A stretch of DNA of 48,302 nucleotides, from the IMG/VR virus record IMGVR_UViG_3300013137_000029, positions 1-48,302 of that record. One strand, written 5' to 3'. Numbering within the stretch: the first letter of the stretch is position 1; each line of letters starts with the position of its first letter. The position numbers were made by a program, and so were the translations under genes. Source of the stretch: a virus. The notes below the pieces were generated by a model. It was not told the origin of the DNA. It was given only the letters and a program-made list of their open reading frames with translations, and did no database searches. Below, piece by piece: positions 11,070 through 15,383 of the stretch.

Positions 11070-11629
11070 CCGAAGCCGAGATCACCTGTGAGTGCCTCTC
11101 CATCCGAATACCCGACCTTCAGTTGGCGTTGACTCGGGGCATGGTGGTCTACCTGGATGCCCAGGTGGCGAAGAAGTCCAGCGATCTGACACGGGCGATC
11201 TATGCACATGGGGTCTCCGTCAAGTATGTCCAGCGGTTCAGGGAGCGACGGCCACCTCCAGTTGAACCCCATGTTGAATCTCGGGTTCAGCCCCCAGTTG
11301 TCCCCGACCTCCCGAGGACACTTCCCTCGGAGCCTTCTGTGGATGCGGAGACCATCGCTCAGCGAGTGGTAGAACTACTGGCACCTCGGTTGGAAGCCCT
11401 CCTCAGCAGCAGAGTCGGTGGTGGTAGTGCCCCTATCAGTCTCCCGTCCTCGTCCCCAGCACCGGGTAAGGTGCCCCTGGTGGACGATAGCGTCCCGTTG
11501 TTCATCCCCTCCCGGATAGGTCGGGATGACCTACAGCCGGTGGTGATTGTAGCGGAAGGTGGCGAAGCAGATGGGGTGTCGGATGCCCTGGCTGCCCTGA
11601 AAGCAGCACGCAAGGAGAAGAAGCGATGA
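11066..11629 (+). CDS. Unknown protein with Pro-rich centre (187 aa)
   Basis: Starts in an ATGA overlap. The N-terminal 60 residues look like a small HTH or beta domain (LALTRGMVVYLDAQVAKKSSDLTRAIYAHG). Residues 60-95 are Pro/Arg-rich, then a helical segment and a Ser/Pro linker. The protein ends in a basic helix (DALAALKAARKEKKR). Coupled downstream to the actin-like gene (ATGA), so it could be its adaptor or DNA/virion-binding partner, as small basic partners often accompany ParM-type filaments. That is inference; no homology is recognised. Confidence 0.55.
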   Translation: MTEAEITCECLSIRIPDLQLALTRGMVVYLDAQVAKKSSDLTRAIYAHGVSVKYVQRFRERRPPPVEPHVESRVQPPVVPDLPRTLPSEPSVDAETIAQRVVELLAPRLEALLSSRVGGGSAPISLPSSSPAPGKVPLVDDSVPLFIPSRIGRDDLQPVVIVAEGGEADGVSDALAALKAARKEKKR

Positions 11630-12630
11630 CGGAGCCGAAGGTCAGTAAAGGCAGGGGGTTGGACATCGGGACGATGAATATCGTTGCCGCCCAGCGTACT
11701 CCGAAGGGCATCGAAACGAAGCGTATGCGGGATGCCTTCATCTCCCTACCGCCTTCGCAGGTGAAGATGCTCAAGCTCGCCAACACCAGCTACGTGCAGC
11801 GAGGGGATGAGGTCCTGATCCTGGGGGACGCTGCGATGGAGATGGCGAACGTCTTCGGGCTGGAACCTCGTCGTCCGTTGTCCGCAGGCATGGTGTCCTC
11901 ATCCGAGATGGATGCCTTGGAAGTGCTCAAGCTGCTCATAGAAAGCGTCTTGGGCAAGCCCCAGGTGGACAACGAGGTGTGCTACTTCTCTGTCCCGGCA
12001 GCTCCGGTTGACCAGCCGGACAGGGACATCATCTATCACCGGGGCGTCTTCGAGCGAATCGTGGAGGAGTGCGGCTTCGAGCCCTACCCTGCCAACGAGG
12101 CGATGGCGATCATCTTCTCGGATTGTGCCCCCGAGGGATTCACGGGCATCTCCATGTCGTTTGGGGCGGGGATGACAAATATCGCACTTGCAATCAATAC
12201 CGTGGAAGCATTGAGCTTTTCGGTTGCTCGTGGTGGCGACTGGCTTGACAAGCACGCTGCCCTGGCAGTGGGCTCCACGCAGGCTCGGATGTGTGCCCTC
12301 AAGGAAGGGGGTATCGACCTCATGGACCCCAAGAGCCGGGAGGAGGAGGCTCTCTGCCTCTACTACAAGGCGCTCATCGAGCACGCCCTGGACCAGGTGG
12401 CCGCCAGGTTTGAGGCGATCAAGAGCCAGTTCGTTCTGCCCAAGCCCATCCCCATGATCGTGTCTGGGGGGACGAGCAGGGCGGGGAACTTCCTGGAGTT
12501 CTTCAACAAGGTCTGGACCAAGAAGCAGCGCCGGTTCCCGGTCCAGATCAGTGAAGTCCGGCAAGCCAAGGACCCCTTGAACGCCGTCGCTCTGGGGATG
12601 CTCGTGCAGGCGATGCAGGAGTACGAGTGA
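11626..12630 (+). CDS. Actin-like ATPase (ParM/MreB/Hsp70 fold)
   Basis: 334 aa, ATGA-coupled to the preceding gene. Phosphate-1 loop GLDIGTMNIVAA at residues 11-22, connect-1-like NEAMAIIFS near 157-165, phosphate-2 SMSFGAGMTNIALA at about 176-189, and adenosine loop MIVSGGTSRAGNF near 278-290. All are in the order of the actin/Hsp70 ATPase fold. The length fits ParM/AlfA-type filament proteins. Jumbo phages usually encode tubulin-like PhuZ, and actin-like proteins have occasional phage examples. Here it sits inside the neck/structural transcript rather than with a DNA partition gene, so DNA segregation, cargo positioning or virion assembly are all possible. Confidence 0.8.
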   Translation: MTEPKVSKGRGLDIGTMNIVAAQRTPKGIETKRMRDAFISLPPSQVKMLKLANTSYVQRGDEVLILGDAAMEMANVFGLEPRRPLSAGMVSSSEMDALEVLKLLIESVLGKPQVDNEVCYFSVPAAPVDQPDRDIIYHRGVFERIVEECGFEPYPANEAMAIIFSDCAPEGFTGISMSFGAGMTNIALAINTVEALSFSVARGGDWLDKHAALAVGSTQARMCALKEGGIDLMDPKSREEEALCLYYKALIEHALDQVAARFEAIKSQFVLPKPIPMIVSGGTSRAGNFLEFFNKVWTKKQRRFPVQISEVRQAKDPLNAVALGMLVQAMQEYE

Positions 12631-13010
12631 TGAGCCTGGTCACCAACATCTCGTCCGAGGAACTGGCAGCCCTCCAGGCGGAGACGGCGGCGGCACCCAA
12701 GCTCAAGCGGCGGTTCAAGCGGGCTGCGGCCCCTTGTACCCTGCTGGTCCCGGACAGCAAGGAGGCCGTTCCGGTGTGCTTCACGGAGGCCACGGCGCCC
12801 TTCGAGGTGGAGCCTCTGCCTGGCCGGACCTACGGCCCGGTCTTCAACAGGGACGTGACTCGGGAGGCCCAGGCTCGGTCCAGCCAGCCTACTCCAGGGG
12901 AGAAGCCCATCCCGATGTCCGACGACAACCTGATCCTGCGGATGGGTGACGGTTCCCTGGTTCACCAGACGAAGGGGTGCCTCGGAACGAGCACCCGGAG
13001 GTTGGGATGA
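12630..13010 (+). CDS. Small unknown protein (126 aa)
   Basis: The ATG at 12630 overlaps the TGA of the actin-like gene by one base; a GTG three bases upstream is less likely. Low-complexity Ala/Glu N-terminus, a basic patch KLKRRFKRAAAPC, then a short domain with conserved-looking PFEVEPLPGRTYGPVF. No recognised family. Immediate coupling to the actin-like ATPase makes it another candidate partner. Confidence 0.55.
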   Translation: MSLVTNISSEELAALQAETAAAPKLKRRFKRAAAPCTLLVPDSKEAVPVCFTEATAPFEVEPLPGRTYGPVFNRDVTREAQARSSQPTPGEKPIPMSDDNLILRMGDGSLVHQTKGCLGTSTRRLG

Positions 13011-13276
13011 GTGGCCACCCCTTTGTCGCCAACGACCCCAAGTGGGTGAAACCGCTGTGGTTCAAGCCCGAGCCGGTCAAGGGCTGCCTCTCCTGCGAGC
13101 ACTTTCGGACTGCCGGGCAGCCCAACCGAGCCTGTGCCGAACGTCCTGTAGTCCTCTTGTTCGAGATGGGTGAGGTGGATGCCCAGGGGGTGTACCACAA
13201 GGACGGTCTTCCGCCTGTGGTGGTCATCACCGCTGGTTGTGCCTCTTACCTTTGCCGGGCGGACCTTACCGCCTAG
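13007..13276 (+). CDS. Small Cys-rich protein (89 aa)
   Basis: ATGA overlap with the preceding stop. CLSCEHFRTAG, a single Cys in RACAER, and CASYLC near the C-terminus give five to six cysteines in a metal-binding or redox-like arrangement, on a small beta-rich scaffold (VVLLFEMGEV, PVVVITAG). No family recognised. It is the last gene before the inserted endonuclease locus. Confidence 0.55.
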   Translation: MSGHPFVANDPKWVKPLWFKPEPVKGCLSCEHFRTAGQPNRACAERPVVLLFEMGEVDAQGVYHKDGLPPVVVITAGCASYLCRADLTA

Positions 13277-13312
13277 TTCTCCTATGGGCCTGCTCAGGTA
13301 GGAGGCGTCGCG

Positions 13313-13363
13313 ATGTACTTTCAGCTTACTGGTGGGTCGTTACTGAGCCTATACCCTTTGTAG
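13313..13363 (+). pseudogene. Decapitated 5' stub of the downstream virion gene (MYFQLTG...)
   Basis: A strong TAGGAGG ribosome binding site precedes an ATG encoding MYFQLTG and nine further residues before TAG. The intact virion gene at 14169 begins with the same seven residues, but its DNA differs from this stub at four positions, all synonymous (TTT/TTC, CTT/TTA counting two, GGT/GGC). The homing endonuclease gene lies between. The simplest reading is that the stub is the original start of the virion gene, cut off by insertion of the endonuclease cassette. Confidence 0.65.
13348..13356 (+). promoter_or_regulatory. Promoter-like CCTATACCC before endonuclease gene
   Basis: CCTATACCC lies inside the stub, 21 nt before the endonuclease start, and TTACTG lies 17 nt upstream of TATACC as a possible -35. 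It matches the core of the elements at 7406 and 27428. Confidence 0.3.
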
Positions 13364-13377
13364 GGTAGAGGTGTCAG

Positions 13378-14154
13378 ATGCCACCACGAGTACACCCCCT
13401 GATTGAACCCGCTGTGCTGGAAGACCTCTATGTCCAACAGCGGCTTTCGCTTTCTCGTATTGCGGAACAACTGGGCGTGCCCTACAGCCTAGTTCGAGCT
13501 TCGATGCGTGCAGCGGAATTGCAGTGGCGTACCAAGTCAGAAGCCCGTGCTGGTCGTTCTTGGGATGAGGCCACCAAGGCAAAGATTGCCGCCGCCCGCA
13601 CCGGGTTCAAGGACACACCAGAGACGGCTGCTCGAAAGCGGGAGATCCTAGCGCCATACTGGGGCTGGACGAAAGGGTTGACCGCTGAAACGGATGTTAG
13701 GATTGCTCGAAAGGCCCAAGCCCTGCGAGGGTACTTTCAGGACCATCCCGAGCGGCGGGACGCTTTATCAAAGCTCCGAGTGCAGCAGATCCAGACAGGC
13801 GGTTTCTGGGACCGAGGTTACTATGAGTCACCCAAGGTTGGCCGGGTCTATTACATGTCTGGATGGGAGCAACGGCGGTGGCAGGAACTGGATGCTGATC
13901 CCCAGGTAGTGGTCTATCAACGGTCCCCGTGTGCGATTCCCTATGAGTGGGAGGGGTCGCCACACAGATACATCCCAGACGTACTCATCCACTACGGTGA
14001 TGGCTCGAAGGTGCTGGAGGAAATCAAACCCCTGAGCTTGTTGGTCAAACCGCACAAGGGTCAGGCCAAGTTGCTCGCCAAGGTGCAAGCGGGTGCCAAG
14101 TATGCCGCAACTCAGGGCTGGGGTTGGCGGGTTTTCAGTTACCCAGCCGTGTAA
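13378..14154 (+). CDS. Homing endonuclease, PD-(D/E)XK (TnsA-like) with N-terminal HTH
   Basis: 258 aa. Residues 13-50 form an HTH (LSLSRIAEQLGVPYSLVRASM). A NUMOD-like basic linker follows (SWDEATKAKIAAARTGFKDT, about 61-80). The C-terminal nuclease core has E164 in SGWEQRRW, then YIPDVLIHYGDGSKVLEEIKP, giving D201, E215 and K217, the PD-(D/E)XK triad in the spacing seen in TnsA-like and phage homing enzymes. It would cut HEG-lacking alleles of the neighbouring virion gene. Its flanks duplicate and recode that gene's first codons. Too little noncoding sequence surrounds it (14 nt after, 65 nt before) for a group I intron. Codon use is less GC-biased than neighbours, consistent with mobility. 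Confidence 0.8.
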   Translation: MPPRVHPLIEPAVLEDLYVQQRLSLSRIAEQLGVPYSLVRASMRAAELQWRTKSEARAGRSWDEATKAKIAAARTGFKDTPETAARKREILAPYWGWTKGLTAETDVRIARKAQALRGYFQDHPERRDALSKLRVQQIQTGGFWDRGYYESPKVGRVYYMSGWEQRRWQELDADPQVVVYQRSPCAIPYEWEGSPHRYIPDVLIHYGDGSKVLEEIKPLSLLVKPHKGQAKLLAKVQAGAKYAATQGWGWRVFSYPAV

Positions 14155-14168
14155 GTGGTTGAAATCAA

Positions 14169-15383
14169 ATGTACTTCCAGTTAACTGGCGCCTTAAAGAG
14201 GCGCTTCATCGAGGAGCTTCGTCGGTACTGGAGCTACCACCCCAAGTACCGCAACGACCTCCCCAACAACATCCAGGGGAAGTTCTCGTTCAAGGAGCGG
14301 CCCCAGCATGGGATCATCGTCAAGACGGGCTCGGGTTCCCGGGTGGACCTCTCGGCGGACAACTACCTGGGGGTCATCGAGTCCTACTGCCTCCTGACCA
14401 GGGTGAACAACAAGCCTGGGTTCTCCATCGAGTGGATTCGGGAGGATGCGGTCGCTATCCAGAACAACCAGGGGTACTTCCCCTCGGCTCCGGGCGTCTA
14501 CTACATCGACGTGCAGGAGGAGACCCCAGGGAGCCTGGTCTTCTACGTGGACCCCCTCCTGGATGTCTCCCATGAACCCGTCGCCATGTCTTCCCCGACC
14601 ACGGGGCAACTGGCACACCCTCCCCTGGCGGGGACGACTCGCATCTATGAGATGCCATCGGGGTTCAAGTACGTGGAGGGGGCGAACTATACCCTAGACC
14701 GGAACTTGGCGGGCGAACTCACGGGGGGCCTGACGTTGATGCAGCCCCTGACCGGGGGGCGCTGGTTGCAGGCGGACTACCGCTACCCCATTGAGAGCCG
14801 GGGTCCGTACCCCCTGGTAGAGATGCACGCCAACAATGCCGCCATCCCAGGGGTGGTCCTGGCGTTCGGGCGTAGGGCTCAGGCCGGGGATCAGATGGCA
14901 GTCATGGTACACGACATCCGTCGTCCGGCGTACATGGAATATGGCGGGAAGTGGGACCTGACTATCGAGTTCGACGTGATGAGCCGGGACGTGTACGCCC
15001 AGCAGGAGATTTCGGACTCGACCATCATGTACATCTGGGGGGTTCTACGGTCGCACCTCTCCCACCAGGGGATCGAGATCAGCGACGTGTCGATGGGTGG
15101 TGAGTCCGAAGAAGTCTACGACGAGAACGGGGATGACTACTTCTACAACTCGAACTTCAGCGTGACGGCCCAGACATCCTGGTCTATCCATGTACCTCTC
15201 GACAACTGGCTTCGGTCGGTAGTTCCCTTGACGGCAGACCAGGCTGCCGCGATTGCCGCACTACCCGATGACCAACTTCCCGGGCACGACGGTAACATCC
15301 AAGCGATGGAGTCCCTCGGCATCCAGGCGATCTCTGATCCGTTCTGGTCCGGTCGGGATGGAACCTTCGAGATGGTGAGGTGA
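14169..15383 (+). CDS. Virion structural protein, neck/tail-terminator candidate (404 aa)
   Basis: Begins MYFQLTGALKRRFIEELRR. A basic helical N-terminus is followed by beta-rich sequence with elements such as NIQGKFSFKERPQHGIIVK, LSADNYLGVIESYCLL and YPLVEMHANNAAIPGVVLAFG, then GKWDLTIEFDVMSRDV. The architecture and position just before the sheath fit a neck or tail-terminator protein of large myoviruses. I recall similar proteins annotated only as virion structural. The start codon lacks a good ribosome binding site (AAGTGGTTGAAATCAA upstream), unlike the strong TAGGAGG left behind at the stub. Translation may depend on coupling from the endonuclease, whose stop is 14 nt upstream. Confidence 0.6.
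   Translation: MYFQLTGALKRRFIEELRRYWSYHPKYRNDLPNNIQGKFSFKERPQHGIIVKTGSGSRVDLSADNYLGVIESYCLLTRVNNKPGFSIEWIREDAVAIQNNQGYFPSAPGVYYIDVQEETPGSLVFYVDPLLDVSHEPVAMSSPTTGQLAHPPLAGTTRIYEMPSGFKYVEGANYTLDRNLAGELTGGLTLMQPLTGGRWLQADYRYPIESRGPYPLVEMHANNAAIPGVVLAFGRRAQAGDQMAVMVHDIRRPAYMEYGGKWDLTIEFDVMSRDVYAQQEISDSTIMYIWGVLRSHLSHQGIEISDVSMGGESEEVYDENGDDYFYNSNFSVTAQTSWSIHVPLDNWLRSVVPLTADQAAAIAALPDDQLPGHDGNIQAMESLGIQAISDPFWSGRDGTFEMVR

Follow-up and report, generated by a model that had tools for sequence, protein, structure and literature searches.

How does a phage gene come to have its first codons written twice, with an endonuclease gene in between, and which of the two starts is the original one? This question is raised by one locus of the window, by which we mean the whole stretch of DNA analysed, a 48-kb virus record (48,302 nt) with related contigs of up to 619 kb. 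As the initial annotation observed, the start MYFQLTG is present twice, in a stub at 13313 (ATG TAC TTT CAG CTT ACT GGT) and in the gene at 14169 (ATG TAC TTC CAG TTA ACT GGC), and over nt 1-21 the two differ at 4 nt in 3 codons, all synonymously. The locus is laid out as follows.

13280..13312, plus strand: leader of the original tail-terminator gene, with a CCTAT motif and the TAGGAGG ribosome-binding site at 13299-13305; aligns with the leader of an uninvaded relative (L002)
13313..13363, plus strand: stub, the original 5′ end (codons 1-7), now displaced and continuing into cassette DNA; a 16-codon ORF reading MYFQLTGGSLLSLYPL and a stop, its last codons cassette-derived; equivalents in L007, L082, L047 and L087
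13334..13377, plus strand: cassette leader before the endonuclease, with a second CCTAT motif and a TAGAGGT ribosome-binding site at 13366-13372
13378..14154, plus strand: homing-endonuclease-like gene, with N-terminal HTH-like helices and a C-terminal TnsA-like PD-(D/E)XK nuclease (Pfam, fold match and conserved columns)
14155..14168, plus strand: cassette-borne short leader of the tail gene, with a weak Shine-Dalgarno in its sequence
14169..14195, plus strand: cassette-borne replacement 5′ end of the tail gene, about 9 codons, its right limit estimated from L045/L047
14169..15383, plus strand: predicted tail-terminator/neck-like virion gene, 404 aa (fold matches and a relative in phage Tunturi_5)

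An independent contig that is a near-copy of the window (L001) has the same arrangement, and an assembly error is thus ruled out for this layout.

Both genes could be assigned to known kinds of protein. The ORF between the two starts had been called a PD-(D/E)XK endonuclease, and Pfam and fold match agree on a TnsA-like domain: its 258 aa match PF08722 (TnsA-like N) at 1.1e-10, and its model matches the TnsA structure 1t0f at 4.7e-5. Its conserved residues are E164, P200-D201 and E215-x-K217, and the catalytic E/PD/ExK set is invariant across the five endonuclease lineages described below, giving this family a known nuclease fold with conserved catalytic residues. The gene at 14169 has neither a Pfam nor a PHROG match, so that no PHROG assignment stands behind its earlier designation as a virion gene; we retain that label because of its fold matches and an annotated relative. 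Its model (mean pLDDT 81) resembles neck and tail-terminator proteins of contractile phages, with matches to the phage 812 neck protein 8q01 (4.3e-8), lambda gpU and gp12-like neck terminators, and a distant relative in the Tunturiibacter phage Tunturi_5, annotated 'tail terminator', lies close upstream of the tail sheath gene. The product is predicted to be a tail-terminator/neck protein.

The order of events can be read from pairs of genomes with and without the cassette. L045 lacks the cassette and L047 and L048 carry it, and their identity outside the cassette is 99.5% in the 3.4 kb on its left and 99.8% in the 7.1 kb on its right. The gene of L045 starts with GTGTATTTTCACCTGACAGAAGC directly followed by GACTCGGCGG. 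In L047, the stub consists of these 23 nt and is followed by the cassette and by a gene start reading ATGTACTTTTTTCTGACCGAAGGGGTG and CGGCGG, which has 10 mismatches to L045 in nt 1-27 and 0 in nt 28-600 (573 nt). The outgroups L052, L053 and L078 keep the YFH..EAT type of start, so L045 represents the ancestral state. In a second pair, L004 (empty) and L007 (occupied), flanks are 87-90% identical and the match on the left takes in the ribosome-binding site and the stub as far as nt 21; the L007 stub equals the empty start of L004 except for 2/21 nt, and the two genes differ at 8/33 positions in nt 1-33 vs 38/567 beyond (p=0.002). L047 carries foreign sequence up to nt 27 and L007 up to about nt 31. 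Genomes that are otherwise nearly identical therefore differ in having or lacking the nuclease gene at one position in L045/L047-L048, and likewise in L004/L007, and these pairs establish that the cassette replaces the 5′ end of the gene and that the stub is the resident original start. Insertion with 5′-end replacement, which the initial annotation had proposed, is thus the step that the genomes record. Its suggested check, that endonuclease-less relatives should begin with the stub DNA, holds for L045 over 23 nt and for L004 in all but 2 of 21 nt; uninvaded relatives with the recoded version were looked for and not seen in either pair.

For the window, we infer the history from the other lineages together with upstream DNA that the window has in common with its nearest empty relative, L002 (protein 75% identical). 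The L002 leader matches the leader of the stub (with GCCTAGT, CCTAT and TAGGAGGCGT in common) and not the leader before 14169, in agreement with the claim that TAGGAGG, in front of the stub, is the original ribosome-binding site. The 21 coding nt of L002, taken by themselves, do not favour the stub over the replacement. A search of viral contigs with the upstream gene gave no empty relative nearly identical to the window. Our model predicts that cassette-free close relatives of the window would start with TACTTTCAGCTTACT and not with TACTTCCAGTTAACT. Gly at codon 7, which is rare among relatives, occurs in both window copies, and the replacement could have come from a near relative.

The arrangement recurs in large phages. 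A search of viral contigs with the tail gene gave 80 loci, and searches with the endonuclease gave others; the endonuclease is intact in five lineages: the window with L001, L007, L082/L083, L087-L090 and L047/L048. Endonucleases of the other four lineages are 42-58% identical to that of the window, and in all five the gene lies directly 5′ of the tail-terminator gene and the stub breaks off at nt 21-24 of the gene. Besides the window, four complete cases have a stub of their own gene start 821-872 nt upstream; the L083 locus is incomplete, being cut by the contig end. In 10/10 endonuclease-bearing related contigs tested, at least 5 of residues 2-7 recur in frame 821-872 nt upstream of the gene. 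Among 77 contigs without an intact endonuclease, none has a stub near the gene, and a single one has a 5/6-residue match (PYFRLNE in L020), which lies 2.4 kb away and is by its position a chance match. Given 10/10 carriers vs 1/77 non-carriers, and the distance of that one match, the association of stub and endonuclease is not a matter of chance. In the tail-gene tree, cassette carriers are scattered among non-carriers. Thus, a TnsA-like endonuclease has inserted repeatedly into the start of the tail gene in large phages, each time with a foreign copy of that start. Relatives of the endonuclease were not found in GTDB genomes.

The initial annotation further described the replacement as silently recoded. 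Differences between stub and replacement are mostly synonymous in all five lineages (P of 0.0001-0.007 per lineage under random change), which indicates that both starts diverged as working gene starts, and the four differences in the window are indeed all synonymous. However, their amount, 2-5 of 5-6 codons, is ordinary: compared with 165 orthologue pairs, the synonymous divergence between stub and replacement falls at percentiles 0.18-0.93, and replacements in two of the five lineages, L047 and L087, change residues. An excess of silent recoding is not supported by this comparison and, since divergence does not exceed that of orthologues, selection for recoding itself is unproven. On the plain reading of these sequences, the replacement would be a foreign orthologous 5′ end.

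We regard it as very probable that the whole is best explained by a mobile cassette made up of a free-standing TnsA-like homing endonuclease and a divergent 5′ gene copy. In the cassette, the endonuclease gene would be accompanied by a divergent version of the invaded gene's first 9-11 codons. For the cleavage site, homing, self-resistance and coupling, we infer the following course from the sequences. In a co-infected cell, the enzyme would cut the tail-terminator gene of a cassette-free relative near codons 7-9, and the cassette would be copied in as the break is repaired from the cassette-bearing genome, the homology arms being upstream DNA plus stub on one side and the remainder of the gene on the other. 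As the genomes show, resident codons 1-7/8 stay after insertion as a stub behind the original ribosome-binding site, the endonuclease follows, and the tail gene restarts at the cassette-borne start as a hybrid gene with its reading frame intact. Since the insertion again places a gene start next to the intact right half of the target, the cassette start would have to be divergent enough not to rebuild the site, and its divergence would double as self-protection. It is plausible, and for this reason likely, that the replacement start resists the element's own enzyme.

The cassette could also be as described and yet its divergent start be mere co-transferred donor DNA, the enzyme tolerating synonymous changes and protection coming from the insertion, from modification or from low expression. 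Divergence no greater than is normal between orthologues speaks for this, and homing enzymes aimed at coding DNA often tolerate changes at wobble positions. However, insertion alone leaves the gene start beside the right half-site, so a difference is needed unless the site lies wholly to the left or right of the junction, and the L047 replacement differs heavily right up to the junction. We consider such passive co-transfer possible, though rather unlikely. The mobile cassette with a divergent start may go further and act as a natural cleave-and-rescue drive, in which the enzyme would destroy the essential tail-gene start of co-infecting relatives and its own genome would be immune through a recoded, translationally coupled start; we see this proposal as evenly poised. 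If it is true, foreign versions keep replacing the 5′ end of the tail gene across large phages, and the tail gene comes to depend on a selfish one.

Expression and decay of the cassette bear on the role of the stub. In three of the five lineages (L007, L047, L087), the stub can be read without a stop into the endonuclease ORF; in L082, the stub ends with TAA immediately before the ATG of the endonuclease, and in the window it stops 14 nt before the endonuclease, with the TAGAGGT site between. Since stub frames open into or abut the endonuclease, the latter tends to inherit the start signals of the tail gene. In turn, the endonuclease ORF overlaps the tail-gene start in L007, L082, L047 and L087, and a 14-nt gap separates them in the window. 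With the tail gene starting inside or directly after the endonuclease ORF, its translation is probably coupled to that of the endonuclease. Relics occur in four further lineages: 53-60 residues from the end of the endonuclease are left in L020 and about 14-18 in L008 and L009/L010, and in L037 19 N-terminal and 25 C-terminal residues form an in-frame relic. All relics retain the piece adjoining the tail gene, as expected if it now holds the start signals of that gene; upon decay of the endonuclease, the 3′ tail of the cassette would stay for this purpose. The open or abutting stub frames might also suggest that the stub is a regulatory upstream ORF kept for its function, for example as a leader peptide for expression of endonuclease or tail gene. 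The stub lacks an equivalent in uninvaded relatives, in L045/L047 it is an exact match to the resident start, and it has disappeared from loci with relics only, all of which make a retained regulatory role very unlikely; expression of the endonuclease from the old start signals may be a side benefit.

A transposon-like target-site duplication of about 21 bp, with copies that drifted apart later, would account for the short direct repeat flanking the insert, and the nuclease domain resembles TnsA of Tn7. However, in L045/L047, with flanks 99.5-99.8% identical, one copy is the same as the empty site and the other departs from it at 10/27 nt, so the L047 copies differed on arrival and target-site duplication is refuted for L047. 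Moreover, random drift would not give nearly all-synonymous differences, and the cassette is without a transposase gene. With one long ORF in the cassette and flanking copies that were different on arrival, the element does not qualify as a Tn7-like transposon, and we judge later drift of a duplicated target highly improbable overall.

That stub and gene are the 5′ and 3′ exons of a self-splicing intron carrying the endonuclease hardly deserves credence, although a gene start split around an endonuclease is typical of phage introns, because the second copy supplies a complete start, initiation codon included, that overlaps the endonuclease ORF or comes right after it, an arrangement that makes splicing unnecessary and a repeat of the exon inside the intron senseless, and because an Rfam scan of 12600-14700 up to E=5 gave no group I, group II or other intron family.

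The mobile cassette with its replacement 5′ end resembles several known systems. In WHO elements of Torulaspora and Lachancea yeasts, each homing replaces the 3′ end of FBA1, whose old version persists as a fragment, and experiments showed the new end to be resistant to the enzyme (Coughlan et al. 2020, PMC7282813). In common with WHO, the phage endonuclease gene lies beside its target gene and is not spliced out, one end of the target gene is swapped for the element's divergent version with the displaced fragment on the far side, here the 5′ end, and intact and decayed copies cluster at one locus. In contrast, WHO replaces a long 3′ end (about 400 bp) and its enzyme is an intein-derived zinc-finger protein, whereas the phage cassette replaces about 30 bp of the 5′ end of a virion gene; its TnsA-like PD-(D/E)XK domain is not the intein-like LAGLIDADG with zinc finger of the HO/WHO lineage. 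Fungal mitochondrial mORFs with C-terminal duplications (Glomus atp6, atp9, cox2 and nad3; Allomyces atp6; PMC3630166) are likewise endonuclease ORFs inserted with a foreign, often synonymously different gene end, leaving the native end as a displaced remnant and a hybrid gene that is expressed in mORF systems. These are 3′ ends, with LAGLIDADG or GIY-YIG enzymes, in mitochondria, whereas replacement of a 5′ end means that the phage cassette must supply a new start codon and ribosome-binding context.

Among phages, gp210 of PhiPA3 is directed at the homologous gene in a co-infecting phage, and PhiKZ regained growth when given a silently recoded target gene (Birkholz et al. 2024, PMC11620839). 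This too is a jumbo-phage endonuclease at a gene needed for viable virions, but the enzyme is an intron-borne HNH nuclease and the recoded rescue was made by the authors and not carried by the element. Free-standing seg and mob endonucleases of T4 also are intron-less genes between phage genes and often overlap their neighbours for translation (review PMC2988022); in contrast to the cassette, they are intergenic insertions, and that review mentions no displaced stub or replaced gene end. We found no phage or 5′-end case of end-replacing homing in the open-access full-text literature. New here would be end-replacing homing at the 5′ end of a gene and in phages, where it was known before at 3′ ends in yeast WHO elements and fungal mORFs.

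Endonucleases in essential genes are usually explained by splicing, as with introns and inteins, or by intergenic insertion, and end replacement is a third way. In phages, crosses are quick and co-infection is the natural setting, and near-identical empty and occupied genomes make the prediction of a cleavage-resistant replacement testable with short synthetic targets. A selfish nuclease with its own cleavage-resistant replacement would parallel engineered home-and-rescue drives.

Other nucleases use the same gap. A GIY-YIG/NUMOD3 nuclease gene (L078:5321-6016) and a DUF559-type nuclease with treble-clef repeats (L014:4474-6000) lie there without a stub, and L078 has no excess 5′ divergence of its tail-gene start (p=0.26). 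The gap before the tail-terminator gene looks like an endonuclease hotspot. End replacement is not a general rule for TnsA-like phage endonucleases: distant relatives in Moonbeam and phiXF1 overlap the next gene but precede other genes and have no stub.

Several minor observations concern start signals and neighbours. The first possible start of the tail gene is ATT in L007 and L082, as in several uninvaded relatives, and a conserved ATT/ATC start is seen in L007, L015-L018, L020, L022, L023, L025, L031, L033, L037 and L082, often behind a strong Shine-Dalgarno (e.g. ACGGAGGTGTCCC-ATT) and also in cassette-borne starts, which suggests rare AUU/AUC initiation for the tail-terminator protein. 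The CCTAT motif, at 13281-13285 and 13348-13352 of the window and in leaders of many relatives, recurs ahead of the tail gene and within endonuclease cassettes, at a distance of about 30 nt from the start codon, and CCTAT or CTAT is present in the cassette leaders of L007, L047 and L087 too; it is possibly a phage promoter element, with no clear enrichment before other genes of the window. A perfect 12-bp palindrome, CCAGTTAACTGG, lies at 14178-14189 inside the replacement 5′ end. The gene at 11626-12630 of the window has a strong match to Pfam Volactin (actin-like; E 1.6e-71), and a Volactin gene adjoins the tail-terminator gene in most related loci as a conserved neighbour. An apparent volactin duplication in L039/L041 proved to be an intein, and an intein-like insert occurs at the same position of the Volactin gene in two distant phages (L041:3801-5924 and L082:2347-4476).
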